Shown: piece by piece, positions 622 to 58,131 of the stretch
Layout: the number at the start of each line of letters is the position of its first letter
Numbering within the stretch: position 1 is the stretch's first letter
Assembly (NCBI GenBank): GCA_963924555.1
Contig: OZ004583.1
Coordinates: 5,985,501 to 6,049,500 of the forward strand
Length of the DNA: 64,000 bases
Reading direction: 5' to 3'
DNA from: Crambe crambe
Lineage: Eukaryota > Porifera > Demospongiae > Poecilosclerida > Crambeidae
Notes under the pieces: model-generated
What the model was told of the DNA's origin: nothing
What the model saw: the letters and a program-made list of their open reading frames with translations, nothing else
The model's database searches: none
Made by a program: the position numbers and the translations under genes

Positions 622-673
622 CTAGTAAGATTGTTATTTTATATTATTTTATTATTATTAATATTGTATTTAC

Positions 674-1383
674 TTTCAGCAGGCACACAAGAGCATGCCA
701 ATCCTCAACCACTGGCTCCAATAGTTCCATACGTTCTCGTGGTGTATCCCCATCCATCAGATGCCTCTGTGCCCCAATCTGACGCTCAACTGTGAGATGG
801 TCCCCCCCACAAGCAACTACACGCCCATCGTGGTACCCTTCACCAAGGTAGCCCTGCATAGCACTCATGATATCGATCATGTCCGTATGTTTAGCTTCAT
901 TCTTCATTAGAACATCAAGCACAAACACTTCTGATTTTTTGGACATAACCTTGGAGTACTGATGCTGTTGGGCACAGCCTTAGCAAAAGGCACCAGTCCA
1001 GGAATGTAGTGCGTGAGGATGCGACTGACAAGAACTACCAGGTTCGTCTTCACACTCTGCACATCATCAGACGAAGGAAGGAAGAACTCTAAGGGGGTCT
1101 CATCAAGGGTTGATAGATGACCAATGTGAGGAAGCTCTGGAGCTGGTGTCCGGCTTAGACCAACCATAATGCTGAACATGTGGATCATCTTGCCTCCATG
1201 GTCAGAGCGATAGTCACAAACTTTCTGCTTTTTGTCAACATTGTCACCCCAGTACTTAACCACAGCCCCATCCTTGATCCACTTCTCCAATGGCACCATA
1301 TGCTTCTTGCTCAACTCATCAATCAGATGCAAGGTACTGGAGTAGCTAAGACAGATATTCAGGTGATTGAGTCGACTGTACAT
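674..1383 (-). pseudogene. DUF6589-type protein, central exon with 1-nt frameshift
   Basis: Exon bounded by an acceptor (CTAATATAG) and a donor (GAAA then GTAAAT). The first part reads RLNHLNICLSYSSTLHLIDE, then VVKYWGDNVDKKQKV and GKMIHMFSIMVGLSRTPAPE. The second part, in another frame, reads VVACGGDHLTVERQIGAQRH and LEPVVEDWHALVCLL. The two frames meet near 968-973, where GTGCCCAACAGCATC lacks one base needed to keep frame. The exon is 710 nt, one short of a multiple of three, while both neighbouring exons are in phase 0. This is either a decayed copy or a single-base assembly error. The WGDN and GGDHLTVER words are the family's conserved core. Confidence 0.7.
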
Positions 1384-1448
1384 CTATATTAGGTATATAA
1401 GCAAATTTTTTTATTACGTATAGAATTGTATCAAGGAACAATGGTAAC

Positions 1449-1931
1449 CTGTTTCTCACAGTGGCAGGAGTACATCAACATAGAAGCAAGTGACTGAAGT
1501 CCAGACATGTGACAGTTCCTCTCCTTCAACAGGACTGCAGCTGCAGTGCCAATCCCTGGATGATGTGCTGGGCCAACCTTCTTCTTATTTCTATGGTCAT
1601 TCCTCACAGCTATGGAAGTGAGAATCTTCAGTAATAGTGGGAACTTTGACTCAAGCTCATCTATCAACGTATTCCACTTGAAAATTTTAAGCTGATCCAC
1701 AGGGATGTGTCTGAAGTGAGAAACAGTGGATGTTTGGCATAGCACTGAACACTCTCTATTGATGGACTCTAAGAAGGATGTGAAAATAGCCTCTTTCACT
1801 GCCTCCATTGCCAAAACTGCACTGGCAATAGAAGGGGCATGTCCTTCAAGTAAAGCCATAGCAACTTTGCCTTCAGCATCACCAAGACTCTGAGAAAAGG
1901 ATGTTTCTTGTGATGGATTGTTAACTGTCAC
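1449..1931 (-). CDS. DUF6589-type protein, upstream exon
   Basis: A 161-codon exon flanked by acceptor ATAATACAG and donor CAG then GTTACC, both phase 0. It reads VTVNNPSQETSFSQSLGDAE at the start and contains ESKFPLLLKILTSIAVRNDH and GIGTAAAVLLKERNCHMSGL, ending LASMLMYSCHCEKQ. The PLLL...RNDHRNKKK...AAAVLLKERN pattern precedes the YWGDN block in the family, so exon order is right. It joins the next exon as CEKQ to MYSRLNHL. The exon itself is unbroken. The sequence upstream (1932-2275) is open, with a possible acceptor after a pyrimidine run near 2225, but I could not fit a phase-consistent exon there. Confidence 0.65.
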
Positions 1932-2352
1932 CTGTATTATAATGTGTGTATTCAAGTGGTGATGATGTCCTTTCTCTATGTAAGTTATTCTTACAATTAC
2001 GCTCTTCCTTGATGCCTGCATATTCTCACTACCACCTGTTGAAAAAGGTTATATAACCTTCTTTTTTTTTTTTGGTCTTTCAGCAACTTACATGAAAGTG
2101 TGCAAGAAGAAAGGGGCACTGGTGAAGACACTGTTGATTGAACCACCTCACAAAGAATGCCAACCGACTCTCCTGCTATAAGTGCAGTGTTTCCTCTAGG
2201 GTCAAATTCAATCAGGGTGGCAAAGCTAAGCAGGGGGAGGGTGCAGGAGGGGGGTGTGCGCGGGAGGGGAAGCAAAAATAGAAATGAATCTTTTGTTGTC
2301 TCAATTAGCTCATTTGAATAAGTTAGAAAATGTAATAATTATAACTGTAGGC

Positions 2353-2691
2353 CTAAAAAAAGCTAGTGGTTGTTGCCCTAAGATGATGCTCACGAACCTT
2401 GTCTCTGCGAAATAATTTGCAGGGGATCTCAATCCAAGATATCTTCTTGGTCACTTGATTATACTTATAACAGAGACTACAAAACATTGATGGACCATTT
2501 TTTTCTCTCATCATTTTCAAGAGTAACCATGGAAATTCATTTAGCCAGGCTGGATCAAATCCACTTTCCCTGTGCTTACCCTTTTTTGTCTGCAGTGGTG
2601 GACCAGAATCTGGGTCAGAACTGATATCTGAACTAGTAGTAGGCCTACTAGTGCTAGAAAAGAACTCTGTTATTTTCTTTCTCTTAGCCAT
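2353..2691 (-). CDS. TTF/hAT-type zinc-finger ORF, N-terminal fragment
   Basis: A 112-codon minus-strand ORF starting MAKRKKITEFFSSTSRP. It then has a Ser/Pro-rich linker, FDPAWLNEFPWLLL, MFCSLCYKYNQ and FRRDKVREHHL. The WL-EFPWL...MFC-LC...F---K--HH spacing is that of TTF-type zinc fingers found at the N-terminus of hAT-derived and ZMYM6/DUF4371-like proteins. A stop follows soon after the HH pair, so the dimerisation and transposase parts are missing or lie in another exon. It sits between the ZAD-like exon (2815-3150) and the DUF6589 exons on the same strand. It could be part of that gene or a nested fragment. Confidence 0.5.
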   Translation of the reverse strand: MAKRKKITEFFSSTSRPTTSSDISSDPDSGPPLQTKKGKHRESGFDPAWLNEFPWLLLKMMREKNGPSMFCSLCYKYNQVTKKISWIEIPCKLFRRDKVREHHLRATTTSFF

Positions 2692-2814
2692 TGATAGTTA
2701 TGGGCCACATGGACAGTTTGCTTAGTGTTAAGTGATTGTGGTATGTAACTTTATGTATGTGGTTAAAGTGGCGGCTACAGCTGTGCTAATTAGCCAGACT
2801 ACAAACCACAGTGA

Positions 2815-9384: not shown

Positions 9385-9653
9385 TTATTGGTGTGTGTAA
9401 GTCTCACCTTTCACATACTTGGTGGTCACACCCTCAGCAAGTGCATGGTAACCTGCATACCTGAGTGCCCTGGCCAATTCCTCCCAATCAATAGCAGGGT
9501 TAAGACACACCATGATCTCAGCTAAGGCTTTCTTTGGTGTAGTACTCTCACTGGACTCGATTCTTTCTATTAGATGTAGATATCGTGCCACTTTCTCCCA
9601 ATCTTCCACTTCCTCCAACACCTTGTTTATTCTCTCAATGCTGAAGTTGGAAT
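9385..9653 (-). CDS. Gene B exon 10, Death-fold type III (second copy)
   Basis: Acceptor TCATTGACAG, then a phase 1 start: DSNFSIERINKVLEEVEDWE at the beginning and IDWEELARALRYAGYHALAE near the end. A donor (AAAG then GTGAGA) lies at 9408, but reading through gives a stop at 9385 after KGETYTHQ. Either the gene ends here or another exon follows that I cannot see. The DW-----YL start and DWEELARAL core match the exon at 12590-12841, so this is the second copy of that module member. With exons 1 to 9 it gives an uninterrupted frame of about 748 residues. Death folds pair with like folds in apoptosis and innate immune signalling. Confidence 0.75.
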
Positions 9654-9874
9654 CTGTCAATGATGAAATGAAGATGTACAGGTATAATTATTCCAACACG
9701 ATTACTCAAAAACTAAGTGACTATCCCATGCATTGTAGAATGAGAATTAGAATAGTATTGTGCACATAGCTACACATCATACACGAGTCAATAAATTTCC
9801 CCTACAGCATGTGCACACCTGTACTGATCATTCTGGCTATAGCTGTAATGGATCACTAAAAACAACTAACTCAC

Positions 9875-10168
9875 CTCTAGTACAATAATCACAAGCTTTA
9901 ATGGCTACGTCAACCTCTTTGACAGATTTATAAAATGCAGCTGTAGCAATTGCCTTCCAAGTAGGTTGATCTGGATGGCTACTGATGTAACACATGGCAG
10001 CTGCTTTCACTTGCTGCTCCTCACTGGGTATATCATACTCAATACGCTCCATTAGATAATAGAATGGTCCGTAGCCACTGGAATCATCTACACAGTACAT
10101 AATGTCCAATGGTGACTTCTTTGCACTCATCAGTACAGTCGTCAGGTTCTCAACTGTCATTGTGGGGT
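9875..10168 (-). CDS. Gene B exon 9, Death-fold type II (second copy)
   Basis: A 98-codon phase 1-1 exon between acceptor TTTCCTTGCAG and donor AGAG then GTGAGT. It starts DPTMTVENLTTVLMSAKKSP and contains EEQQVKAAAMCYISSHPDQP, then TWKAIATAAFY and VDVAIKACDYCTRG. The PTWKAIA helix fits the conserved Trp helix of Death domains. The segment before it is atypical and long, with Asp/Ser/Tyr-rich sequence. The exon is clearly paralogous to 13939-14214 (AAA--YI-SH...SWK). As a Death domain it is divergent; the assignment leans on its neighbours. Confidence 0.65.
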
Positions 10169-10641
10169 CTGCAAGGAAAACTTGATTACAGCTAGAACTG
10201 AATGGAAATAATGACCTATGACACAATAGCTACTTTAATCACTTAAAGGGAATTGTCTATGGAAGGGATAGTTTGTGTCATGAAACCATAGAGTTATTTT
10301 GGATTCCACTGTATCCCATATGAACCATACACTGCAATTTAGTTGCTATGGCATGTACACATGCTATTGAGATCTTACAATTAAAGCATGGAATTTGATA
10401 GAGGTTACAAAGTTGAATTCAAGTGATCCATGTATTATGCTGTTTGAGAATAAGTGTTCTAAAATCCGTAATCATAAAGCAAATTGTATTGCAGCCATAC
10501 AGCTAGCTGATGGGATGTACTAGTTGACAGAGTCAGTCAATAACCGTTACACTTAATACAGTTCAATTAGCTAGCACTATTAGAGTCTAAAGTTAGGAGA
10601 GGGATGTGTGTTATGGAATAAGGAGATTTCCCCTAAATTAC

Positions 10642-10830
10642 CTGCTGGCTCAGCAAAGTTTCTGATGCTGTCAGCATGCTTGCATTGATCCATTTCATCC
10701 ATTGTGCTTATGAGTTGTCTCCATGTAGTGATAGCTTCAGCAGTCAGGAGTTCTTCCAAAGAATAGTACTTCCTCAACAGAAGTTGTACATAAGTATATT
10801 TCTGCACATTCTCAACAGAGAAATCTGATC
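10642..10830 (-). CDS. Gene B exon 8, Death-fold type I (second copy, short)
   Basis: A 63-codon phase 1-1 exon between acceptor TTCTCTTTTAG and donor CAGCAG then GTAATT. It reads GSDFSVENVQKYTYVQLLLR at the start and TTWRQLISTMDEMDQCKHAD near the end, finishing IRNFAEPAG. The W-QLI--MDE...FAEP ending matches exon 16415-16666 (WRRLIWALDEID...FAEP). It is 21 codons shorter than that copy, having lost the loop between helices 2 and 4. The short form may not fold as a complete six-helix bundle. Confidence 0.65.
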
Positions 10831-10939
10831 CTAAAAGAGAATAATATTACTTAGTCGGGATTCTAAGCATGCAATGTACATATACAGGACCTAACTTTTT
10901 AAAACTCCAGGAATATAATTCTAAATGCTATTAATGCTA

Positions 10940-12430: not shown

Positions 12431-12589
12431 CTTACACTAAGTCAAAAGACAACTCAGAGTTTCTAAACTATAGTCAGCCACTCACATCAAGATCATTACA
12501 TTCCTGGATCCTATATGGATCATGTCAATACTACTAGAATTTCTTACATTGTTAGCTTACAAAATATCAACAAGAAATGTATCTCTCAC

Positions 12590-12841
12590 CATTAGGAAGG
12601 TACTTTGATGCCTGTTTAGCTGCAATCTCCTCCCCACAGTGAGACAGTGCTGTCACCACATTCCCCCAGGTCACATAGGGGCACACATGGACTAGGTGAT
12701 GAACGAGGGCTCCTTTCTGATCGTGAGCAGACTTGATCTGTGATATAGTATGGCCAACGATCCCCATGTACTTTGATATGGTCTCCCAGTCCTCCACCTC
12801 CTTCAATACCTCACTTAACAACTCAACAGTAAATGTTGGAT
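12590..12841 (-). CDS. Gene B exon 7, Death-fold type III (first copy)
   Basis: An 84-codon phase 1-1 exon between acceptor CTCTTAGCAG and donor AATG then GTGAGA. It starts DPTFTVELLSEVLKEVEDWE, contains ISKYMGIVGHTISQIKSA and TWGNVVTALSHCGEEIAAKQ, and ends ASKYLPNG. Helical spacing and the W--VV-AL---G motif agree with a Death domain. It pairs with exon 9385-9653 as type III of the duplicated three-exon module. Confidence 0.75.
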
Positions 12842-12922
12842 CTGCTAAGAGGAAAAAGTAGTCTCAAATGTATGTCTAGGAATAGTGATCACAACGTATG
12901 CCATACTCATCACTTCATTTAT

Positions 12923-13818: not shown

Positions 13819-13938
13819 TATCATATAGCACTAAATTTTCATGATTTTGCAATAGAAATGTGAACCTCTAATTATTTTTCAATACCACCAAATATGTAAA
13901 AAATTTGAACCCAATATGGTAGCTTACTGTCCGCTGAC

Positions 13939-14214
13939 CTTTTGAGAAGTTAGTCATGGCACTCTCAACAGCCTTCATCTCTCCATTTACATAGAGCAGT
14001 AGGGATAATAACTTCCAAGAGGGACAACCATGACTGGTTATGTAAAGAGAGGCAGCAGCTCGTATCTTCTCCTCTCCACTTAGAAATAAGATGCGGAAAT
14101 AAACAAACCGAGAACAGCAACCAATAGAACACTTCTGTATCTCCAGCACTGATGACACATCTCCCTCTATCTGCATGAGTACTGCTGCTACATTCTCTAC
14201 ACCCAAGGTAGATT
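13939..14214 (-). CDS. Gene B exon 6, Death-fold type II (first copy)
   Basis: A 92-codon phase 1-1 exon between acceptor TTACTCCTGTAG and donor AAAAG then GTCAGC. It starts ESTLGVENVAAVLMQIEGDV, contains EEKIRAAASLYITSHGCPSW, and ends AVESAMTNFSKG. It aligns with exon 9875-10168 through the AAA--YI-SH and -SWK words, so it is type II of the duplicated module. A Cys-rich insert (CSIGCCSRF) is peculiar to this copy. A second possible donor lies 13 nt further (GGACA then GTAAGC). It would change the phase, so I prefer the first. Confidence 0.65.
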
Positions 14215-15940: not shown

Positions 15941-16414
15941 GCCTACTGCATAAGGGGTAGAAGCCAAGATTTGTTAAAATACTAGATGGTCAACCTGCAA
16001 AAGTTGTATAGTGGAACTTCCAATAAAGGACCCTCCAAGAAAAGGACTACCTCCCAACAAGGGGGCCCCTTTTCCATCCGCATTAGGACATTTTTAACCT
16101 CCGAGAAGGGATAACCTCTCTGCTAAAGCAAAGTGGCTGATCCCAAAGTGTCCTTTACTCGGAGGTTCCACTGTAATGAAAATTGAGCTCCTCCATTATA
16201 AATTACTATGTAGTATCTATAGGTGGGCATTAATATAAGGGGCCATGATGGCAAAATAAAGTTATCTTGGCAATGGACTCTTCCAGATGCTTTAAACAAG
16301 GTTCAACTTTCTCAGGACTTCAAGCTAAAGTCAGGTCACACACATCAGGTTATACACAGAGAGACCTGAACTCTGGGCTATAATAATACCAGCTAACAAT
16401 ACAGATGATCATAC

Positions 16415-16666
16415 CTTGTGGTGGCTCAGCAAACCTTCGAATGTTATCAGCAATTCCTTCATAAAGATAATCTATTTCATCGAGAGCCCAAATAAGTCTC
16501 CTCCATGAAGGAGGTGCTCCCTTTCCTGCTAGCCAGGCTCTAAGAACTTCTTCACCACTAGATGCAGGAGCATCTTTCACTGCTAGCAATTCTTTCAATG
16601 ATGCTGCCTCTATCTCCAGTATTTGTGGGATGTACTTGGTGATGTTAGGTAGAGTCAACTGTGGGA
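16415..16666 (-). CDS. Gene B exon 5, Death-fold type I (first copy)
   Basis: An 84-codon phase 1-1 exon between acceptor CCCATGCAG and donor CCACAAG then GTATGA. It starts IPQLTLPNITKYIPQILEIE, contains VLRAWLAGKGAPPSWRRLIW and ALDEIDYLYEGIADNIRRFA, and ends EPPQG. The AWL-G---PSWRRL--ALDE stretch is a textbook Death-domain helix 4 to 5 region with its conserved Trp. This is the best-preserved Death domain of gene B and the first after the Pro-rich linker. Confidence 0.8.
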
Positions 16667-16739
16667 CTGCATGGGAACACAAAATAGTAGAACACATGAT
16701 CACTACATGTGCCAGTCAGAACATAATACCAGACAGTTC

Positions 16740-22799: not shown

Positions 22800-23640
22800 A
22801 CATATTGTGCAAAGTTCTAGCTATAACTGCAGGATGTGGTTATAAAGGGTATCACCTTGTCCACAAGGTTGGTTTAAAGGGATCTGGTAGTGAGAGACCA
22901 GGTGGGTGTGGCTGGCGCCTATGAGCATAGATACTACTAGGGCAATGTACAACATTTGAGTAGCAGCGAGCAAGCGAGCAAGTATTCCTATAGGCTGTCT
23001 GATAGCTATTCATTTGTGTTTTCAACTCCTTAGAAGATTTTGATATGAGTTTATATGTAAGTGGCAAGCAGCTGCATACATGAAAAACTGTAATGCTTAC
23101 CTCAAAGCACCTAGTGCTTACAAGCTGCTTAGATAAGCCTCCCAGCCTACTGCTGTAGAAATGTTGAGCTGATAGTTCATTTGTGCTTTGCTGTTGAGTT
23201 ATGTGTAAGTGGCAGGCAGCTGCCATGCATAGAAAGCTAAGTACTTACCACAAAGCACTTATAGTCAAGTGGCTTAGGAGCATATTTTAGGGAAATGGGG
23301 ACAAAGCGGATAAAAGCACCAAATTTATTTTGGCAACTCCTTTGATAGTAAACTTCACTTTTGAGGTAGGAGCCACCCCTGTATGTGAATAGAACCCAGG
23401 ATTTTTACTGATGAAACATTTTTCATCCTTATAATACGATATCCGCAAAAATAAATATTTTCGCGACACATAATAAATCTATTGCGAAATTTAAAAACGC
23501 GAAAATATAATTTGCTACTCTGATCTTCTTTTGATAAAATTTCATGAAGGTGCAAATTCTGGTGAGTAATACCTGCATACTTAGCATGTGCTTGCCTATG
23601 CAAGTTTGTGCATGTGCCTAGCTGTAGTGTAGTGCATTAT
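22800..23640. other. Intergenic or intronic, repeat scraps
   Basis: Contains GAGACCAGGTGGGTGTGG (like 19785), GAGCAAGCGAGC words shared with 27965, and two related segments at 23040-23130 and 23200-23290 (TATGTAAGTGGCA-GCAGCTG). No supported gene is seen. Confidence 0.5.
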
Positions 23641-23693
23641 ATGGAGTGTTTATGAGCAGCTGTCACAGATTCTGTTTGGTGCTCACTACAGTG

Positions 23694-24553
23694 ATGGATT
23701 GGACACTGTGTATAGTCTGTCAGCAGAAATCTCATGAGATACTCAAGTGTCCCTTGAATGCAGAGGGTCCTGGAGACAAATCAGAACCTTACAGAACATT
23801 CCTGACAAACGTCAAACAATTCAAAGAACTAAATCAGCTGCCTGTACCACTCAAATTTGGACTAGACATAGATATGGATCAACTGGTAAGGAATCAAGCT
23901 AAGTGGCACAAATCTTGCCACTTGAAATTCAGTGCAAGCAAGCTGCAAAGAGCAATTAGGAAGAGAGAAAGAGACGAAATCACTGACAACAGTAGTGCTA
24001 CAGGCAAGAGGCGACGTTTACATCGCCAGCTTCTGGACAAGAGCAACTGTATATTCTGTGGAAAGCAAGATGGACATCTCCATGAGTTCAGGACTCTTGA
24101 TGCAGATGATAATGTAAGAAGAATGGCCAGAGATCTGCAAGATACAACATTACTGACCAGGATTGAGGGTGGTGACCTAACAGCACTAGAGGCGAAATAT
24201 CATCTCGCTTGCTTAGCTGGACTCAGAAATAGGCATCGCTATTTTCTCAGGCAAAGGCAGGGCTCCCAAGGCAATCCAGAAGAAGGTGAAACTGAAGTAA
24301 GAGCCTTTGTTGAACTGATAAATCATGTGGAAAATGCTGTGATCAGTGGTACTTTCTCTTTAAATTTTCATCATTGCGCCAAATGTATGAAAACCGCTTG
24401 CATGATCTTGGCATCAGTAAAAAGATCAACAAAGTTCGATTTAAAGAACGAGTTCTGGAATACTTTCCCAATGCCCAAGAGCAAAATGATGGAAAGAATG
24501 TGATATTTGTTTTTGAACAGGGAATGCAGAAAATGCTCAAGAGGTCTGCAGAA
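23694..24553 (+). pseudogene. Zinc-binding transposon-associated ORF with frameshift
   Basis: A plus-strand ORF starting MDWTLCIVCQQKSHEILKCP. It contains RNQAKWHKSCHLKFSASKLQ, then SNCIFCGKQDGHLHEFRTLD, VRRMARDLQDTTLL and KYHLACLAGLRNRHRYF. CxxC...HxxxC pairs suggest two zinc sites. I know this family only as uncharacterised proteins abundant in cnidarians and sponges. At about 24358-24365 the frame breaks. The downstream frame resumes as LRQMYENRLHDLGISKKINK and FVFEQGMQKMLKRSAE before a stop at 24553-24555, consistent with one lost T in TCTTTAAATTTTC. The family continues well past this point, so the copy is truncated as well. It lies in an intron of gene B, on the opposite strand. Confidence 0.65.
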
Positions 24554-24599: not shown

Positions 24600-25190
24600 G
24601 TGTGCAAAGCAAATATAATATAAGCAGAACTTTACAAAAGTTTAGCATAATATATAGCAAAACTACTATTCCTACTTCGCTCCCAAGGAAGCCTAGGAGT
24701 GAAGAAGGAATAGTAGTTTTGTAATACTATTGCCGTGATTCTTGAGGGTACGGGTAAGGGGTTACTAGACTCACTTATTGCTGAAGGGGGAGTGAAGAGT
24801 AGGGATTTAAGTTGATATAATATGGGCACGTTTATTGAAATTAGGAGGGCTAGGAGTGATAGGAATGCAGCTACTTATTTAGAAGAAATTTTTTGCGCTC
24901 ACTTGTGAAAATACATGTACTTACACAAAGGCTCAGTCATGGACACCACGATGTATGGGACTTCAGAATGTTACATCTAAGCAATGCATAGAATTAACCA
25001 CCATTATCTGTCTTTAAGCAAATATAAGCTGAACTCTATCAAAGTTTAGCCACACAGTAAATTTTCCCACTTCCACATGGTCATACTGAGAAGCTTATCA
25101 ATCCCACAAGTATGCAGTTGGTCAGATTGAACATGAAATCAGGGCTATAGCTGCAGAGACCATATGGATGACCAATGAAGTGGGGCGTGT
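24600..25190. other. Intronic sequence with a short foldback
   Basis: AACTACTATTCCTACTTCGC and its near-reverse (GAAGGAATAGTAGTTTTG) form a small hairpin at 24659-24722. A lone foldback terminus (AGAAATTTTTTGCGCTCACT) is at 24882-24905. No gene is seen. Confidence 0.5.
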
Positions 25191-25197
25191 GACCTAC

Positions 25198-25313
25198 CTG
25201 AGGTGGGTGTGGTTGGTGTGAAGCATTAGGAGGACATGGAGGAGGAGGAGGTTGTAATGTAGGATAGAGTGTCGGAGGAAAACCAGAAGGAGTAAGAAGT
25301 CCTGGAGGAGGGT
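25198..25313 (-). CDS. Gene B exon 3, Pro-rich linker
   Basis: Exon of 116 nt, phase 1 in and phase 0 out, between acceptor TATCCTTCCAG and donor CCTCAG then GTAGGT. It reads DPPPGLLTPSGFPPTLYPTL, then QPPPPPCPPNASHQPHPPQ. It directly follows the 2A exon, so Gly-Asp-Pro-Pro begins the downstream product after its first Pro. It is low complexity and likely disordered, separating the skipped leader from the Death-fold exons. Confidence 0.65.
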
Positions 25314-25379
25314 CTGGAAGGATAAAGAGTAAACAAAAGAGGTTATTATTCATTTAATAAGGTGGCAGTACAACTTTTA

Positions 25380-26809: not shown

Positions 26810-27130
26810 CAGGACCAGGGTTAGTTTCAACGTCACCAGCCAATATCAATAACAAGGAAGTCACCACCTGATGATCAGAATAATGAACAGTGCGGAAAAC
26901 TCTTCTCCTTCGATAACACTTCCAGTTATCTCTAAGAGGTAATATCACAGCGGAAACATTTCCATTTGTGATAGTGCAGCCATATCGGTGATTAGTACAC
27001 ATGGTACATGAGCAGTGTGGACCATTACGAAAGCGAGTCTTGGTCGTCCCTTCAGATTCAGTCACTGCAAGCTTCCACCACAATACTGTCAGCAAGTAGT
27101 TCAAATAAAGCACGTATCTCAGAAGTTCAC
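26810..27130 (-). CDS. Gene B exon 2: hydrophobic, Cys-rich segment ending in a 2A-like ribosome-skipping motif
   Basis: A 107-codon phase 1-1 exon between acceptor TTTTTTACACTGTGTAG and donor CCTG then GTGAGT. It starts GELLRYVLYLNYLLTVLWWK, a likely second membrane segment. It then has a Cys-rich stretch GPHCSCTMCTNH, a basic WKCYRRRR, HYSDHQVV, and ends LLLILAGDVETNPGP-G. DxExNPG/P is the full 2A consensus, with the hydrophobic helix that normally precedes it. At such sites the ribosome omits the Gly-Pro bond, so the leader (exons 1 and 2, 176 residues) should be released and the rest begin with Pro. 2A-like sequences are known in some metazoan non-LTR retrotransposons and in sea urchin NLR proteins. 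The paralogous exon at 52048-52365 conserves the motif exactly, along with WWKLA, the CSC/TNH cluster and YRRRR. Confidence 0.85.
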
Positions 27131-27662
27131 CTACACAGTGTAAAAAATGATCAATCAGACCCTCTGCTTTTCCACTTCTGTTTGTTCAAATTAATCTCCC
27201 ACAAGGAGGACTATGACCTTCTAGCCTCAGCCAAGTGTTTTGTGGTGCACATTACACCTTCCTATGTATGTAGCTGCCTGGTTGGAACTTCCAACAGCAA
27301 AATTTTAAGGGGTAGTGAAAATAAGTTGGAGTCTATCAACTCTAAAAGTAAAAGCTCACTTGCAGTCAAATATTGCACATGACCCTAGTATGATAAATAG
27401 CCTGCCTCCCTAGATAAACAACCATAATTATAACTGACCACCATGCTGGACACTCAGCTAAATAAACATAAATGAGTAGGTGGTGGTACTGTCCATTGCA
27501 GGTTGGAAGGTTTGGGGAATAGGTGGATACATTTTGTCCTATGGTTTACACAACTGCATGGATTGTATAGGACATGAAAGGATCAGGTTTCTTAGGTCCT
27601 TGTAAGCCACTACCTATTTCTCATTCCTTACTGACAACCATCCTGAAATCTACAGTATGTGG

Positions 27663-27830
27663 ACAGGAAGCAATGAATTTAATCACATTGGCCTATGTAG
27701 GTGGTCCATAGTAGACAGGAAGCAATGAATTTAATCACATTGGCCTATGTAGGTGGTCCATAGTAGACAGGAAGCAATGAATTTAATCACATTGGCCTAT
27801 GTAGGTGGTCCATAGTAGACAGGAAGAAAT
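27663..27830. repeat. 52-bp tandem repeat, three units and a partial
   Basis: ACAGGAAGCAATGAATTTAA recurs at 27663, 27715 and 27767, and partly at 27819, at an exact 52-bp period. The units are essentially identical, suggesting recent amplification. It lies in intron 1 of gene B. Confidence 0.9.
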
Positions 27831-28070
27831 GCCTCATCAGAATTCACTGACATGGGGGAGGTTTGCTCAGCCTTACATTCACCTCTAGCTTTATAGCATT
27901 ATTCTCGTGCAGTCGCATTAAAAAACTTAGAGCTAGATAAGAGTGAACTAAAAGTAATAATTTCAGCGAGCAAGCGAGCTGACTCTCAGGTCATGACTCA
28001 TTGAAATTGTAAATATATATATCAAGGTCTAGACTCCAAAATGCCCCAGGCATTAGTATATGTGTCTATA

Positions 28071-28218
28071 GCCCCGTTTACACGGGGGTTCTAACCCGGA
28101 TTCGCTTCGTGTGCGAATGGTACCAACCCGGATTCCAATCCGGGTAGCCCAACCCATATCAATTAAGTGGATTGGAATCCGGATTGAATCTCAACCCGGG
28201 TTAGGCGCGTGTGGCTTA
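28071..28218. mobile_element. Foldback element in intron 1 of gene B, copy at 57335-57500
   Basis: Words GTTTACACGGGGGTTCTAAC, AACCCGGATTCCAATCCGGG and TGGATTGGAATCCGGATTG form nested hairpins. The gene A copy at 57335-57500 is also in intron 1, soon after exon 1. The flanking word AATTTCAATGAGTCATGACC is present next to both, but inverted. Confidence 0.8.
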
Positions 28219-28513
28219 TGTGGTATGTGTCCATGTGTCGTGAATAGTGCCTTGATTGATTTCTACAGTCTTAGGGGGTAGGCTAGGTGATTGGATTGTA
28301 GGCACTAGGCTTTAGCTATCTATCTAAGTGCTTTGTGGAAAGCATTAGAGCTTTCATGTATGTAGCTGCCTGCCAATCAACAGCAAAATCTTCTCCTGGA
28401 GTTGAAGCACAAATGAATATCAGCTCAAAAAGCCTATAGGAATACTAGCTTGCTGGCTGTGACTCAAATGTTGCACATTGCCCTAGTCTTAAACACTAAA
28501 CCGTAATTCATAC

Positions 28514-28724
28514 CTGAATTCAATAAATGTTCCATCTTGAGAGCATACAAAAAGATGACTGCTATCAACAACCACCATAAGGTCAAAATGAAAGGAATGA
28601 ACCAGACATGGCGGGAAATGGCCGAGTAGCTTCTCTGTTTTGGCTTGTGGCCTTGGAAGCAGTAATACTGCCTCAGATACCGGACTCGTGATTTCCACAA
28701 GTCCACCAACTCAGTCCTGATCAT
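28514..28724 (-). CDS. Gene B exon 1: N-terminal membrane-anchor exon
   Basis: Coding starts at ATGATCAGG (28724), not at the TTG further upstream. The gene A copy has the same ATG, and an acceptor (TTTTTTGTCAG) precedes it in both, so a 5' untranslated exon is likely. The exon gives MIRTELVDLWKSRVRYLRQY, a basic linker (GHKPKQRSYSAISRH), a membrane span (VWFIPFILTLWWLLIAVIFL) and MEHLLNS. The donor is TTCAG then GTATGA, phase 1. The positive charge before the span predicts a cytosolic N-terminus. It is about 80 percent identical to the gene A exon 57921-58131 and exactly the same length (211 nt). There is no cleavable signal peptide. Confidence 0.8.
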
Positions 28725-28799: not shown

Positions 28800-30280
28800 A
28801 ACAAACAAACAAAAATGGACCCTTGAATTCTGACCTTTGACCCCACCTATGGGCGTGGCAGGAGTAAATGTCACATGGCTATCAGTCTATTACTATTATT
28901 AAAGTGTGTGCAGTCAATGTGAGCCTCCTCTGTGACAGGTCTGGTGTTAGTTTCAGATATGCTATCATAGTGACAGCCTAAGCTGTGTAATAGTTCAAAG
29001 TGGTCTGGTCTGTTGAAACATAGGTACTGTACATTATCTATGCTTTCATCAACTGCTTCGCTCGCCGATTGAATATGTTACACGAACATACCCTAGTACG
29101 CTACCAGAACGAGATGACATGTCTGCCGAGATGCCGAGTCTCGATCTCGTGGGGTGGGGTCTTATTTGAATCTGAGCATGCGCAAAAATGGCGGGAATTT
29201 AGAGCTGATTTCAGGGTAGATGGTCTTGAGATGTGCAATAAAAATTTAGCTAGAAATTGAATTATAGGTAACTGTCAGAGCCCAGTTTTAAAAGAGAAGG
29301 CTGTGAATGCCAGTCCCTTGTATACTGCAACTTTCTCCCCCAATTTTTTTATTTGGCAAGATAGCAAGCTGGTTACATTCCTTCATCCTTTATCCTTTTC
29401 AAAGCTGTAATATTAAATGATCGATTGTATATATATTTTCAGAGGATGAAGAATTATGTGGGTTTGTTTAAAGGTAGTATTTTAACTATGCCCATAGTAT
29501 AATAGCTGCACCTCCCATACTGTATGTAGCAGTGAGTAGTAAATCTTTTTCACTGTTATAGCTACATACGTACAGCATATATAGCTCTACACTATATACA
29601 CCTTTTGATCGGAACCATGCAGACTAGATTAGATTGTCTTCCATGTCTCATGACAGTCATGCCTTCGAACGTTGCAAATCAGTAATTTGAGTGCTATTTC
29701 TGTATACAAAAGACCCATTTATTTCTTCTCCTGTCCCCTTCCTTCCAGGAAAGGTCTAACTAACTACCAGTAAACTTACAGAGTGATGCTGCAGCATCCT
29801 GAGATTGAGGCAGATCGTATGAAGGTGTAGTGGATGTTCAGTAGCTAGGCAGGAATCATTCAATGTGTATAACTACTTACTCCACATGCTCCATACTAGA
29901 GAAAGGTCAACAAGCTACTCATTCAACAGGTTTCCTCGGCATTTCTTGTTTCATTTATATCAACAGGAATTGACTAGCTACATTCGGCAAGACTAGATCT
30001 TTGAGGGTGTGTACTTTTGTTTCTCAACTAGCTATGGGCATGCATGCGCCAATGGCAGGAGTTTAAAATATTTTTTCTATTTCAGTGATAACAATAGAGT
30101 ATATAGTTACTTTAAATTCTAAACTTTAGCTGCAGGTGGTTGATCAGCTCTGGGGAGGTCACACATCATGCTGTAACAAGAAAGGAATTATAATCTATTA
30201 TGACATCTGGGAAGCTTCCATAGGTTATGCTCATTGAGCATGGTTTGGTCAACAATTAAAGTGTTGTAGCTATGTAGTCT
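28800..30280. other. Region between genes A and B, no gene seen
   Basis: This should contain the promoter and 5' untranslated exon of gene B. I cannot place them with confidence. A fragment of the 3240-3560 repeat is at 29046-29097. Confidence 0.45.
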
Positions 30281-30285
30281 CTCAC

Positions 30286-30540
30286 CTTTCATATACTTGG
30301 TGGTCACATCCTCAGCAAGTGCATGGTAACCTGCATCACTGAGTGCCCTGGCATATCCATCCCAATCAAGAGCAGGGTTAAGGCACACCATGATCTCAGC
30401 CAGGGCCTGCTTAGGTGCAGTTCTCACTCGACTTGATTCTGTCTATTAGTGATTCAGGAAGAGAGAGAAATAGTGTAACTTATCCCAATCTTCCACTTCC
30501 TCTAACACCTTGCTTATTCTCTCAATGCTGAAGTTAGAAT
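30286..30540 (-). pseudogene. Decayed Death-fold exon (type III), probable relic 3' exon of gene A
   Basis: It retains the acceptor (TCATTGACAG) and donor (GAAAG then GTGAGA) of gene B exon 10 and aligns with it over the whole length. It starts DSNFSIERISKVLEEVEDWD and ends ALSDAGYHALAEDVTTKYMK. Between them are an insertion of about 11 nt and a loss of 2 nt, and the restored frame runs through TAA TAG in tandem. The exon is thus 9 nt longer than its functional relative but cannot encode a complete fold. Its place upstream of gene B and downstream of gene A suggests it was once the last exon of gene A. Confidence 0.75.
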
Positions 30541-31014
30541 CTGTCAATGATGAATATGAAGATTACTCTCATCCTCTCATCTATTCGTACATACAGGTTT
30601 AGTTTTAGTGAAGTGAGCACTGTATTAATAGTGGGGGAATATTATAGTATTTTGCACATAGCTACATGAGCTGCACTGCTATGTATGCCTATTGTAATGG
30701 ATCACTAACAACGCACGGTCAATCTAGCAGCCGACTCTTTACCTCCAAAAACCAGGCTTCTCTAGTATACTAGCATGAAATAACTTTTAAAACCAACGAC
30801 TTTAAAATCTCATTAATTTTCTAGCACTGAAGCAGTTTTCGTTCCAGTTACACTTCAAAATAGTCCTATCAACAACAACTTTACTCACTATTATACCATT
30901 TGGCCAAGCAAAGGAAGCTAGCTGGTTTTACATAAAATGTGCCATGTGTTATTTTCAAATTGAATCATGTTTGCCCCCGAGAAACAACTAATCTATTCGG
31001 CATGAGGAAAAAAC

Positions 31015-34286: not shown

Positions 34287-34337
34287 TCAGTTCAGTGTCA
34301 GTCTTAGATGCAACATATTCCTGACGTGAGTGTTGAG
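34287..34337 (-). CDS. Gene A small linker exon
   Basis: 17-codon phase 1-1 exon between acceptor TTATGTGCCACAG and donor CTGA then GTAAGT. It reads AQHSRQEYVASKTDTEL. It directly follows the Roc-COR exon after a 70-nt intron. Using a nearer AG would introduce a stop. Confidence 0.45.
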   Translation of the reverse strand, partial: LNTHVRNMLHLRLTLN

Positions 34338-34407
34338 CTGTGGCACATAACAATACAATAAGTCCAGAGTTCTATATGCATAGATGTGCAAAACTTGACA
34401 TGCTGAC

Positions 34408-36516
34408 CTTTCTTTGGTCTGAACCAGGATAAGCAATCCTCAGATAAAGCACAGCTCTTGTGCTCACTTTCACAGTACATGATGTAGTCATCATCCTCGT
34501 AGTCTGGATCTTGGACTTGGTGGGTAGAGGAACATGAATCACACTTGATACAAAAGTAATGTTGGGTCTTCAGACTGTCGTAGTGCAGATCTTTTATCGA
34601 AGACTTGATACTTTTATCGACTATGTTGCGAATATCATTGCATAGATGGCTGATATGAACACGACGAGACTCGCAACAAGATGGGTTCAAAACAATTTCT
34701 AGAAATGAAGATGAAAATTTCAGAGTTACTCTGTCTTTAAAGCGACCAACACTGAAGGATACTTGGTCCCTGAAAATGGAGTCAGGTAGAAGCTCCCACT
34801 TATTTTTGCTCTGGACTGTATTTGAAAGTAAAGTGTTTATTAAAACACCGAATATCCCCTTTGGGCAGTGATTACATTTGAACCCAATGTAGAGTGTGGG
34901 GATGCTAGAAACTGGTTCAAGTCTTTGAGATGCCTGGACATGGTTAAGGACACATGGGATGAAGTATCTGTCTTCTTCATTTTCCAATGAAGTGATTTGG
35001 GATATGATGCGGAGATGGACGAGTAATTTCAAGAATGAATTTGGATCGATGCCATCTTCTGCTGTTAACACTTGCTTGAAAATTGAGGCTGAAATGATTC
35101 CTCTATGCTTGAAATCTGAAAGTTCATGTTGATAAAGCGATTTAGAAGAAAATGTTTCCACAATGAGGTCTGTGACTTTATTGAAAAGAACTTGAGGTTC
35201 TCGTACAACGATATTATGCAAGCCTTTTACAGGAAAATACTTGATCCTTCCAATTCGGGTGTGAAGAAATCGCAATAGGTGCTTCACTTGGTCTTTACTG
35301 ATGCCATACTGAGCAGCTAGAGACACACATTCATCAAAGGAAACAATGCTCTTCTTCATATTTTCCAAATCAAGGCTGAACAGCAAGTAGCTGATAGGAT
35401 AGTCAATGGCAAACTCATCTCGACCAATTACTATTTCACTGACTCGTGATCGGATGCGTTCAAAGTCCTCTTCACTCTTGCTGTAATTATCAACAGTGAA
35501 CATCAACCTGTTGGATTGCTGATCTGCATACTGAACCAAGTGCTGGTATCCATGCTTACAAACTAAATTGATCAATTGTCGGTCAATCTCACTGATTTTC
35601 TCTTCAGCATTGGAACCAAGCAGATCCTTGTGTGTTCCTACTATGAAGACAAGAGGTTGGTGGGTCTTGACATCACTTTGGCCAGTTATATCCATGGCAT
35701 CGACACTAGCAAGACACTGCAGCAGAGCATCCTCTGTGCTGATGGAAGATACATACGAATTGATAACAGTTCTGTCTTTTTTTCGATATGATATCTTGAA
35801 CTTGCTGCAGAGATCTTGATCGATGCGAAAGAGGAAGAAGAATATGGATGGTCCAGATATCAGGAGAGGCAGCATCTCTTGGAACTCCACTTGACCACCA
35901 GTATCAGTCAAGTAAATCGAAAAGGAGTTCTTTAAATACTTTTGAACTCTGTCGTAGCCATATTTACTTATTATCGATGAAATATTATGAATAAGTTTTG
36001 GTGGAGGTAAGAGTTGTCTCCTGGAGAGATCAGCTTTATCACTTGTTAGCATTTCTAAAGTGACAGAGCCACTGGTTTGACATGGAGTCGTAAAATGCGA
36101 TACATGTGGAGATGTTACTGGTTGAAGTGGAACAGTGGATGGTGCAGGAAGAGGCACTGTTCTGGGTGTCATTGTTTTGGGTGTGATGGTTATGCTTTCC
36201 TTGTTCATTTGCCTCACAACAGACACCTCAAACTCGGCTTCGGACCACTCCCCAGCCTTTAGTAGAACTGTAACTGATGCATGTGTGGCAGAAGAATCTT
36301 CTATTCCAACGTCCACTATAATAACAGGCTCACAGACACCAGTGGAGGGAGAGAAGTCCTTTGGGACTTTGCGAACAAGCCGAGTGATTAACGAACTTTT
36401 TCCAGAACCAGGGGAGCCTAGAAAGACAGAATGGACTAATTTTCGTTCTATGTCTCCAGATTTGTTGATGGCTTCTTGTACCACATTAAGAAATTCCTTT
36501 TCATCTTGATCAGAAT
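34408..36516 (-). CDS. Gene A Roc-COR (ROCO family) GTPase exon
   Basis: A single 703-codon phase 1-1 exon between acceptor TGCTATACTTGTAG and donor AAAG then GTCAGC. Residues 30-45 carry the P-loop (VFLGSPGSGKSSL), 203-209 the Walker B/G3 (LTDTGGQ) and 295-298 the G4 motif (THKD). G4 is THKD rather than NKxD, as in other Roc domains of this type. Between switch regions lies a Pro/Thr-rich insert (residues 105-140). The COR-like region follows from about 380 to 560. After it come a Cys-bearing segment (FKCNHCPKGIFGVLINTLL) and a C-terminal Cys cluster (CIKCDSC). ROCO proteins are dimerisation-regulated GTPases; DAPK1 and LRRK2 are relatives. In marine invertebrates this type is often fused to Death domains. 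No frameshift or stop is present, so the exon looks functional. Confidence 0.9.
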
Positions 36517-36559
36517 CTACAAGTATAGCAAGAAACCATATCATTCATAATTATTGAGA

Positions 36560-50015: not shown

Positions 50016-50302
50016 AGAAACAAGTAAAGAAAAAACATTTATTCAAATAAATGAAGGTGATGTAGGGATGACTATAGTAACTGGTCAAAAAAGAGATGAA
50101 ACAAGAACTGAATAGATGAGATTATGCAAGGATGAAGTCGAATCCGGGTGCAGTCACTAGGTGTGACGTGCCCACATTCGACTTCATCCTTGCATAATCT
50201 CATCTATTCAGTTCTTGTTTCATCTCTTTTTTGACCAGTTACTATAGTCATCCCTACATCACCTTCATTTATTTGAATAAATGTTTTTTCTTTACTTGTA
50301 TA
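50016..50302. mobile_element. Foldback element, family 5
   Basis: Ends AACAAGTAAAGAAAAAAC, then the small hairpin CATTTATTCAAATAAATG, then GTGATGTAGGGATGACTA. The arms are about 120 nt with ACTGGTCAAAAAAGAGATG and TGCAAGGATGAAGTCGAAT, and the loop is near 50138-50170. It sits 120 bp downstream of the Death-domain exon at 50421. Confidence 0.9.
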
Positions 50303-50420
50303 ATGATGTTTGGTACGTATCTCAGATTTAAAAACTGAGTCCACATTGAAGCTCGGAAGTTTGTTACTATCCCACCAAAATTAATAATTGAGGTAGAATC
50401 AATGTCAAAATTTAAAACAC

Positions 50421-50702
50421 CTTTTTGAGTGAAGTGTGGACAGTACTTTTCTCGTAGTTTCTCTGCAAGTATTAGTTTGTCCACACTGGAGTCCTCCAGA
50501 GCTGATACCAGTGACTCCCAGGAACAATCTGAAGTAGTTTCTAACCAAACATTGAGACACTTCTCCAAACGAACATTTTCATCACTACATTCAGATTCGA
50601 AGGACTTAAGATTGTTGTCATCAATACCCAATAGCCTGCCAATTGGGAACCACTTGTCACTCACATCAATCAGTTCATTGTAAAATTCCTCCAACTTCAA
50701 AT
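50421..50702 (-). CDS. Gene A Death-domain exon (divergent)
   Basis: A 94-codon phase 1-1 exon between acceptor TTTTAATTACCAG and donor AAAAG then GTGTTT. It starts DLKLEEFYNELIDVSDKWFP, contains IGRLLGIDDNNLKSFESECS and RLEKCLNVWLETTSDCSWES, and ends LREKYCPHFTQKG. The LGI---L--FE...CL--WL......SW-SLVSAL pattern is a clear Death domain. It is separated from the previous exon by an intron of only 54 nt. Confidence 0.8.
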
Positions 50703-50756
50703 CTGGTAATTAAAACAGATGATAGCAGTAGTATAACTCTTGAAATTAAAAATTAC

Positions 50757-51020
50757 CTTTCATTATTGCTCTAGCTACTCCTTCGTGACCAATTATTCTG
50801 AGTGCCTTTATCAAGCTCTCCCTTGTCGGTTTACCACTCCTTTTCATCACATTGTCCTGCTGATTGAGCCAAGCCAAAACCAAACTATTGCAAAGTGACT
50901 TCATCTTCTCCATGGTGGTATAGTGAAGTCCCAGAGCCCAACCCAGCCGTATCAAGTCTTCTGTGTTCAAACTTCGCAAATATTCAGTGATTTTGAAATG
51001 ATCGTCTACTGTTAGTTGCA
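50757..51020 (-). CDS. Gene A Death-domain exon (duplicate of 48807-49070)
   Basis: An 88-codon phase 1-1 exon with the same acceptor and donor words as 48807-49070. It starts VQLTVDDHFKITEYLRSLNT and ends RIIGHEGVARAIMKG. The conserved Trp of the PTW helix is Arg here (KPTRESLIKAL), which may weaken the fold. Because 48807-49070 keeps Trp, this copy may be the derived one. It lies first after the 2A exon in gene A, so it would begin the released cytosolic product (Pro-Gly/Val-Gln...). Confidence 0.75.
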
Positions 51021-51099
51021 CTGCATAAATAATAAGAAATCCAATCATGATATGAAACTTATATAATGATGTTTGGTACATAGCTCAGATTTAAAAACT

Positions 51100-52047: not shown

Positions 52048-52365
52048 CAGGACCAGGATTAGTTTCAACATCACCACACAATAACAATTTTAATGGCGCC
52101 AACACTTGAAGGTCAGAATAGTGGATAGTGAAAAGTGATCTTCTTCTTCGATACCACTTCCAGTCATCATGAAGAGGTATGGAAGCATTGTTGTATGCAG
52201 TAGTGCAGCCATACTGAAGTTTGTGATTGGTGAACATGGGACACGAACAACAGGGGCCTTTATACGGGTGAGGTTTGAGTGTTGCTTCAGATTCAGTTAT
52301 GGCAAGCTTCCACCACAATAATACCAGCAGGAAGTTCAAAGCAAGCAAGTATCTTGTGATATCAC
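52048..52365 (-). CDS. Gene A exon 2: hydrophobic, Cys-rich segment ending in a 2A-like motif
   Basis: A 106-codon phase 1-1 exon between acceptor CCTCTTTTTATAG and donor CCTG then GTGAGT. It begins GDITRYLLALNFLLVLLWWK (likely membrane segment), then GPCCSCPMFTNH, WKWYRRRR and HYSDLQV, and ends LKLLLCGDVETNPGP-G. The 2A consensus DxExNPG/P is perfect. The exon stops one base after the last Pro codon, exactly as in gene B. Cys and aromatic positions are conserved between the paralogs while spacer residues differ. That pattern suggests selection on the protein. Exons 1 plus 2 would release a 175-residue leader, or one about 49 residues longer if the SRCR exon is included. Confidence 0.85.
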
Positions 52366-53050: not shown

Positions 53051-53378
53051 CTTTTATCTTTTATGCTCTTATAATAACAATTGTAGAATGAAGATGAGAT
53101 ATAGCGACATACAATGTTAGATATTTGCTGAAAAATTGTTTCACTATTTAGATTTCAAGACTGTATGCAGGAAATGTTTAATAGCTAATGCTTATTTCAA
53201 GCATATTATTATTAGCTATAGAATTGTCCTCAATGTCACAAAATCATGATATTTTTTGTAGTACAGCAACAGTAAGTGCATAAACCAATAATTTACACGC
53301 ACTACAATATCAAAATATGGACATATACATTTCCACTTCTCAAGCATTTAGTTTTAGGTTGTTGCTACTTAGTATTAC

Positions 53379-53525
53379 CTGTAGATGACATTCCTAGTTG
53401 CTTGCAGACCACACTGGCATCAGTGTCACTCCACGTCTGGTCACACACAGTTCCATTAAGACACATCTCCACACGACCCTCAGTACCAGTTCCATTTACA
53501 AGTCTGAAATCACATTCTGTGCAAC
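53379..53525 (-). CDS. SRCR half-domain exon in intron 1 of gene A
   Basis: A 49-codon phase 1-1 exon between acceptor CATTATTTTAG and donor CTACAG then GTAATA. It reads [20 protein letters not shown] at the start and [20 protein letters not shown] at the end. This is the N-terminal half of a scavenger receptor Cys-rich domain (RLV-G---EGRVE-C...TVCD--W---DA-VVC-QLG). Two residues (WG) normally before TVCD are absent. The second half, with its Cys pairs, is not found nearby. Phase would allow in-frame inclusion between exons 1 and 2 of gene A, placing an SRCR piece between the two membrane segments. It may equally be an orphan or belong to another gene. Confidence 0.7.
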
Positions 53526-53699
53526 CTAAAATAATGTCATCAAAGTTTGATTGGGTAACTAACACAAGAATAATTTTGCACATATCAATTTCAAGCAACC
53601 ACCAAGAATGTACTTTTAATACTTCATATTTTACTAGCTCTAGTTATAGTTAAGTAATGCAACATCATAGCTACATTGCTACGTACCTGGTAGCTATAC

Positions 53700-57920: not shown

Positions 57921-58131
57921 CGTTGTTTAATAAATCCTGCATTTTGAGTTTGTATAAAAAGATGACAGTTATCAACAACCACCATGCAGTCAAAATGAAA
58001 GGGATGAACCAGACATGGCGGGAAAGGACAGGGTAGCCTCTCTGCTTTGGTCTATGGCCATTGAAGCAATAATATTGCCTCAGGTACTGGACCCGAGACT
58101 TCCACAACTGCACCAGTTCAGACCTGATCAT
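57921..58131 (-). CDS. Gene A exon 1: N-terminal membrane-anchor exon
   Basis: Coding starts at ATGATCAGG (58131), preceded by acceptor TCATTTTAG and GTGTGAGAGG leader. It gives MIRSELVQLWKSRVQYLRQY, a basic linker (GHRPKQRGYPVLSRH), a membrane span (VWFIPFILTAWWLLITVIFL) and KLKMQDLLNN. The donor is AACG then GTGAGA, phase 1. It is the same length as gene B exon 1 and about 80 percent identical, with changes mostly conservative. The cytosolic N-terminus is predicted from the charge before the span. It joins exon 2 as Gly-Asp-Ile-Thr. Confidence 0.8.

Follow-up and report, generated by a model that had tools for sequence, protein, structure and literature searches.

The closest known system to the genes described here is that of the 2A signal sequences of sea urchin NLR proteins (SpNLR2A; Roulston et al. 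2016), in which 85 of 241 NLRs carry a 2A sequence in or near the N terminus, and a 26-residue leader is found in 14 of 87 NCBI entries (PMC4981915). The urchin element that was assayed gave about 80% separation, by a qualitative estimate; protein left unseparated is routed into the exocytic pathway (PMC4981915). Among viral StopGo elements, the LLLLSG-like class offers two related motifs, of which motif 6 was assayed and found to be active; cellular genes are said to contain StopGo only rarely (PMC12846837). Membrane spans have been noted in sponge NLRs, which were suggested to be membrane-bound (PMC12909245), and N-terminal spans of sponge and anthozoan NLRs have been read as membrane anchoring (PMC12909245, PMC5094078); the main text of PMC12909245 contains neither the term "NPGP" nor the term "skipping." Nothing on sponge 2A leaders appeared among the listed results of searches of open-access papers on 2A with sponges, NLRs, or immunity, or on membrane-bound NLRs. 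A systematic survey of eukaryotic 2A sequences has reportedly been made by Rao et al. in 2025 and may already list sponge cases, so we do not claim sponge 2A leaders as a first report. Odon et al. are said to have described, in 2013, the 2A-like sequences of APE-type non-LTR retrotransposons, placed near the N terminus of a metazoan multi-copy ORF.

The window that we analyzed is a stretch of 64,000 nucleotides (G000:C5:5985501-6049500) from the genome of the demosponge Crambe crambe, which comprises 143 Mb in 119 contigs. It holds two related genes, A and B (Table 1), and we consider it likely that both are host genes of the Death-domain kind, with 5′ exons for a membrane-directed leader that ends in a working 2A/StopGo element. 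In gene B, the minus-strand segments 28724-28514 and 27130-26810 join in phase into an open frame of 532 nt, that is, 177 codons and one base, with 176 residues up to the Gly of NPG/P. The leader ends in LLLILAGDVETNPGP, followed one base later by a GTGAGT donor. The borders are ATG...CAG/GTATGA for exon 1 and GTGTAG/GTGAAC...CCTG/GTGAGT for exon 2, and both introns flanking exon 2 are in phase 1, which makes it a symmetric 1-1 exon. The preliminary description of this leader, with its exons joined in phase, basic N terminus, Cys cluster, RRRR, 2A motif, and donor, proved correct to the base. The core octapeptide, D(V/I)ExNPGP, is in frame, is preceded by the hexamer LLILAG, and by its sequence would lie at the N terminus of the protein after a hydrophobic stretch. 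It is, as had been proposed, a canonical 2A octapeptide, and its L-rich surroundings are those of a StopGo class with a related motif active in vitro (PMC12846837).

Table 1. Exons and motifs of genes A and B, numbered from the first nucleotide of the window.
Feature	Gene	Positions	Strand	Evidence
Leader exon 1	A	57921..58131	-	Second copy of the gene B leader family
Leader exon 2, ending KLLLCGDVETNPGP	A	52048..52365	-	62% identity to gene B exon 2; phase-1 donor
First exon after 2A: Death domain	A	50749..51022	-	~1.0 kb downstream; row of Death alignment A12
Second Death exon	A	50440..50709	-	Pfam Death 1.3e-5, over cut-off (ORF 50269-50709)
Roc-COR (ROCO) GTPase exon downstream of gene A	A (inferred)	34307..36544	-	COR-A 1.5e-10, over cut-off; Roc 0.002, below cut-off
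Leader exon 1	B	28514..28724	-	ATG, basic N terminus, first membrane span at 28551-28607
Leader exon 2	B	26810..27130	-	Weaker second span at 27060-27116, Cys cluster, RRRR, 2A motif
2A/StopGo core GDVETNPGP	B	26811..26837	-	Predicted separation before final Pro codon, 26811-26813
Proline-rich exon, proposed next after 2A	B	25159..25314	-	Relative after another 2A-leader type elsewhere on C5
Death-domain exon	B	16413..16664	-	ORF 16353-16715, E 6.7e-9, independent Death profile; phase-1 borders by eye
Exon with phase-1 borders	B	13934..14212	-	No Death-profile match; 30% to exon 10169-9870
Death-like exon	B	12585..12842	-	ORF 12570-12863, E 2.2e-5; Pfam Death 0.03, below cut-off
Marginal Death-like exon	B	10646..10829	-	ORF 10583-10846, E 0.03, partial; 43% to exon 16664-16413
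Exon with phase-1 borders	B	9870..10169	-	No Death-profile match; model with six helices, low confidence
Last recognized Death-like exon	B	9403..9648	-	ORF 9388-9687, E 1.8e-4; Pfam Death 5.9e-4, below cut-off

Hydropathy finds the one clear and one probable membrane span that had been suggested for this leader: a strong span at residues 40-58 (KD 2.46) and a weaker one at residues 76-94 (KD 1.19, with values of 1.81 and 1.93 in two relatives). A net charge of +4 stands ahead of the first span, and the topology predicted below is based on hydropathy and charge. Every one of the 20 exon-1 loci that were read keeps the exon-1 ATG, which in four of them sits three codons further in, and the sequence before it is not common to the sub-groups; we therefore take this ATG as the start. 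The reading of exon 1 as an internal exon spliced from a preceding gene, which a polypyrimidine-AG and the phase would permit in the C5 copies, was rejected. In gene B, the polypyrimidine-AG immediately precedes exon 1, and a 5′ UTR exon ahead of it is possible. About 0.4 kb upstream of exon 1, at 29094-29120 (-), we noticed by eye the start of a different 2A-leader type (MSSRSGSVL with matching upstream sequence, compare L088), as if a leader of one type had been inserted behind the promoter of another. This start is a possible alternative 5′ end for gene B, and together with the polypyrimidine-AG it means that the 5′ end may be more complex than drawn here. The intron between exons 1 and 2 also contains three near-identical direct repeats of ~60 bp (cttcctgtctactatggaccacc...) at 27650-27860 (-).

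The exact motif GDVExNPGP occurs at 167 sites in the genome, against 0.0016 expected (for the back-translated motif in 143 Mb at the base composition of the window) and 0 for the backward pattern, and a chance origin of the gene B motif is accordingly rejected. Its variable residue is Thr at 87 sites and Leu, Val, Ile, or Met at 54; with the Ser sites included, 166 of the 167 could be placed, and 64 of these belong to the gene B leader family. The arrangement in gene B, not recognized at first as a described system, is no isolated case but one of 167 motif sites, with the sea urchin NLRs as a close precedent. Elsewhere in this genome, six matches to a pattern that we take to be the silicatein-type active site, silicatein being a demosponge protein, lie in three divergent pairs within 12 kb (G000:C15:872855-884857; L095, L096), with 0 for the backward control; the two loci read carry QCGASYAFSAM... 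and GNCGASYAFATTG.... These matches speak for a demosponge.

The gene B leader family has a conserved exon structure. Exon 2 gave 98 genome matches at E<=10, of which 68 were used and 30, weak or partial, were dropped; for exon 1, 69 of 74 matches were used and five dropped on the same grounds. In 65 of the 69 exon-1 copies, exon 2 follows on the same strand within 15 kb, across introns of 79 bp to 12 kb. Of the 68 exon-2 copies, 63 retain the exact motif and five do not. At the 36 loci listed, a GT donor comes after the Pro codon; it varies somewhat (GTGAGT, GTCAGT, GTAAAT) and in one case is displaced by 3 bases. Purifying selection acts on the full length of exon 2, in which Cys and basic residues are conserved: pooled pN/pS is 0.24 for 34 intact rows, and among the 529 pairs whose silent change was sufficient the median is also 0.24. 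These pairs are not independent, since one locus is present twice (L029 and L074) and many copies are recent duplicates.

The gene B leader is one of eight leader types that have a common layout, namely, a hydrophobic stretch, an L-rich hexamer ending in [A/S/C]G, DVExNPGP, a phase-1 donor-like site, and usually a Death-domain exon. The hexamer (at least three bulky residues in four, then Ala, Ser, or Cys, then Gly, before the Asp) was found at 62 of the 63 distinct sites read. Most of these sites had been selected for similarity or for the motif, and LLILAG, the hexamer of the gene B family, accounts for 35 of the 63. As read from genomic sequence only, 61 of the 63 sites have their first donor-like sequence beyond the Pro codon in phase 1, within 15 bases at 52 and further away at nine. 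Ahead of the motif, the leaders differ. When ten leader sequences were compared with the 2A removed, clear kinship was seen only for F4 and F5 (1e-12) and for L069 and L070 (8e-6), with weaker matches for F8/L070 (0.007), F5/F6 (0.065), and F2/F7 (0.14); the eight types are thus unlike one another at E<0.001, a comparison with little power for the shortest leaders, which have ~30 residues before the motif. One type, F3, is present as nine copies of another hydrophobic leader on C1 (3.55-3.99 Mb; L059-L067) ending in LLLLSGDVELNPGP. Ig-like ORFs, instead of Death exons, lie within 1.5 kb after the F3 leaders, and 7 of 46 ORFs in a mixed set match Ig_3 (best 4.4e-8); F3 is possibly a 2A signal-anchor on Ig receptors.

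These observations bear on two rival explanations. The motif might be kept but be weak or inactive here, the genes encoding true membrane-anchored Death-domain receptors, as would agree with the spans that hydropathy finds in the leaders and with the published reading of N-terminal NLR spans as membrane anchors (PMC12909245, PMC5094078). We judge this unlikely because exact conservation of the octapeptide in 63 of 68 copies would be surprising for an inactive element, as would retention of the functional hexamer class at 62 of 63 sites across leaders that are otherwise unlike. Alternatively, selection could act on the separated leader itself, perhaps as a membrane peptide or a decoy, with the 2A coupling its dose to that of the body and the fused form being immaterial. 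Purifying selection across the whole of exon 2 is more than a bare 2A needs, and the conserved Cys and basic residues point the same way, but the other leader types are short and dissimilar, with hydrophobicity and the 2A as their common part. A specific leader function cannot therefore be general, and we regard this second reading as improbable.

Death exons lie downstream of the 2A sites with a marked direction. Within 1 kb on the same strand, a Death hit follows at least 35 of the 166 sites; among the matches listed, none lies upstream or on the other strand. At 10 kb, same-strand hits are found at least 40 times downstream and at least 21 times upstream, as expected in tandem arrays. A third Death query added at least 24 same-strand downstream exons within 2 kb, against one upstream and one on the opposite strand among the matches listed. 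All queries together place a same-strand Death exon in the 2 kb downstream of at least 60 of the 166 sites. By family, same-strand exons within 2 kb among the matches listed were found at 27/64 sites for F1, 26/27 for F2, 0/9 for F3, 0/10 for F4, 5/7 for F5, 2/6 for F6, 0/14 for F7, 0/16 for F8, and 0/13 for ungrouped sites. Reading of individual loci adds a Death-like exon right after the 2A in one F7 and one F8 locus (L093, L094) and in three of the 13 ungrouped sites (L069-L071). In the gene B family, by pattern and eye, a Death-like exon lies on the same strand within 1.5 kb in 17 of 29 loci (L010-L038), and Pfam Death is matched at E<=0.01 by 1 of the 46 ORFs of at least 70 aa within 1.5 kb after these 29 leaders. 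At L089, the next recognizable exon after the 2A is a Death domain ~0.4 kb downstream, with, as in gene A, a phase-1 donor after the 2A and then an open exon.

Pooling post-2A exons from seven leader types settled their Death identity. Ten such exons align with one Death signature, and the pooled profile matches death domains among solved structures, including those of THOC1 (3e-9), FADD (1e-6), RIPK1 (1e-6), PIDD, TNFRSF25, and Fas; alone, 8 of the 10 exons match Pfam Death at E<=1, the best at 1.1e-8. Single-family searches are weak: Pfam Death was reached by 6 of 9 members (best 0.015), profile comparisons were modest, and PDB profile searches with single families A4 and A5 found no death domain. 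The 2A leaders also precede ROCO/Death, NACHT, and Ig exons. From 103 NACHT hits of 232 candidates, a same-strand NACHT lies downstream within 30 kb of 7 of the 166 sites, three of them within 2 kb, and five lie upstream on the same strand. A same-strand NACHT match lies 0.7-1.7 kb downstream of the 2A sites at G000:C12:668132 and 673981 (+) and C16:2088616 (-). By sequence, these C12 and C16 loci are candidate NLR-type genes and appear closest to the sea urchin arrangement.

Within the window, gene A has a recognizable Death domain after the 2A, and the A12 profile, which includes its first post-2A exon, matches the death domains of FADD, RIPK1, and THOC1. The Roc and COR domains of the ROCO exon are in the same frame and order, and this exon would be part of the gene A transcript. 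It belongs to a region (G000:C5:5.77-6.37 Mb) in which Roc-COR exons and 2A leaders form a head-to-head array, on the minus strand below ~6.13 Mb and on the plus strand above ~6.17 Mb. An SRCR match (3.1e-8), by eye the ORF 53365-53643 (-), is found in the intron that separates the two leader exons of gene A and has the same orientation as the gene.

For gene B, the exon proposed to come first after the 2A is proline-rich rather than a Death-fold exon. Relatives of this exon (25314-25159) also follow another leader type, with 84% identity over 56 residues in L083 and 64% over 42 in L078, which means that unlike 2A leaders stand before one body. The six Death folds originally proposed were tested with a Death profile made without gene B sequence but with gene A sequence, for which the best reversed-sequence control scored 0.85. 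The proposal is supported for three exons (6.7e-9 to 1.8e-4), marginally for one (0.03), and not for the two near 14.0 kb and 9.9 kb, which do not match the independent Death profile. AlphaFold models of two gene B exons are of low confidence (pLDDT 61 and 59), and a PDB fold search with the first exon model returned nothing below E 3.3. No Roc-COR exon was found in the gene B part of the window; a same-strand one lies 3.6-5.3 kb beyond the window start. The junction of leader and body in gene B spans introns of 1.5 kb and more, with possible mobile-element ORFs between, and the proline-rich exon and Death-like body would be spliced to the leader across them. A 291-aa ORF without clear family in a gene B intron, at 23628-24503 (+), and the ORFs in 644-2697 (-), which comprise a DUF6589 ORF at 644-979 (1.4e-13) and a C17orf113-type zinc finger at 2353-2697 (below cut-off), are probably mobile elements. 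Between the gene A tail and the gene B leader, a further Death-like exon at 30281-30541 (-), 67% identical to the last Death-like exon of gene B, is probably the decayed tail of another gene, with what look by eye like in-frame stops.

In the working that we propose, the ribosome would make a leader with a basic N terminus, two spans, probably arranged as a hairpin whose ends are both cytosolic, and a Cys-rich basic stretch. This leader would be drawn to the membrane and released at NPG/P without a stop codon. The ribosome would then continue, and the second product, beginning with Pro, would be a Death-domain protein free in the cytosol; whenever the bond does form, that protein would remain tethered to the cytosolic face of the membrane. 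Three products would thus come from one mRNA: the leader as a membrane peptide of its own, the Death-domain protein in the cytosol, and, in smaller amount, the tethered fusion. The positive-inside rule would place both hairpin ends in the cytosol, so that the fused body is predicted to be tethered, not secreted. Since death domains signal by assembly, membrane tethering could shift the signaling threshold, and the genes may have an immune or cell-death role. The fixed ratio of leader to body first envisaged is not expected, because a fused fraction should remain, as with the urchin element and its separation of ~80% (PMC4981915). More speculatively, StopGo leaders might be a general, exon-shuffled control by which the Death repertoire reads the translation state: disturbed elongation or release factors would alter the unseparated, membrane-tethered share, which would lead to crowding and then to signaling. 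If this were true, infection, toxin, or stress would be triggers, but we consider it a long shot.

That the gene B leader is the N terminus of a non-LTR retrotransposon ORF or of another mobile element is extremely unlikely, even though metazoan non-LTR elements can carry 2A-like sequences (as PMC4981915 mentions), the leader is multi-copy, and one gene B family site, C8:6512974, has a reverse transcriptase hit 4.9 kb downstream on the same strand. Reverse transcriptase is matched by 0 of the 61 window ORFs of at least 90 aa, with no reverse transcriptase or endonuclease in cis, and by 0 of the 46 ORFs within 1.5 kb downstream of 29 gene B family members, and the combination named in advance, exon 2 as the N terminus of a retrotransposon ORF with reverse transcriptase in cis, was not found. 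Among the best 150 of 801 reverse transcriptase candidates, hits within 10 kb of the 166 2A sites (same strand, one downstream and one upstream; opposite strand, four downstream and one upstream) show no preference for side or strand. Besides, the leader is spliced from two exons, the intron between them measuring 79 bp to 12 kb, and no relative of it was found in a scan of viral contigs, so that a retrotransposon or viral origin is rejected. The original call of a host gene is borne out by these two ORF counts, the paired spliced exons, and the conserved phase-1 borders.

The likeness to the 2A sequences reported for APE-type non-LTR elements lies in a 2A near the N terminus of a metazoan, multi-copy ORF; in contrast, gene B has no reverse transcriptase or endonuclease match in cis, a spliced leader, and a Death-domain body. 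With viral LLLLSG-like StopGo, the sponge elements have in common the octapeptide (D)VExNPGP and an L-rich hexamer ending in Ala, Ser, or Cys plus Gly, but the viral elements separate polyproteins (PMC12846837), and the scan of viral contigs found no relative of the gene B leader. Like the putative membrane-bound NLRs of sponges and sea anemones, the genes have N-terminal spans before a Death/NACHT-type body, whereas here, with the published genes compared by description, a 2A motif stands between spans and body (PMC12909245, PMC5094078). Since this motif would separate the two, the body is predicted to be mostly free. This offers an alternative to membrane-bound sponge NLRs, in which the span of a gene model would mostly be left unattached by translation, and receptors with a membrane-bound look may be free in the cell.

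The resemblance is greatest to SpNLR2A, in which an N-terminal hydrophobic leader ending in DVExNPGP likewise precedes a Death-type receptor body, in a multi-gene family with a predicted dual location of the body (PMC4981915). The differences are equally clear. The gene B leader has 176 residues, two spans, and two exons, compared with 26 residues in the urchin; its fused body is predicted to lie on the cytosolic side, whereas the unseparated urchin product is exocytic; and several unlike leader types are present here, one of them before Ig exons (PMC4981915). The genes in the window are of Death/ROCO type, NACHT not being among the families matched by the 61 window ORFs, in contrast to the NACHT proteins of the urchin (PMC4981915). 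With 167 exact StopGo sites in one animal genome, several unlike leaders, and Death exons directly downstream of many, these genes link a demosponge to the sole described urchin case and suggest either an old animal device or its repeated invention.
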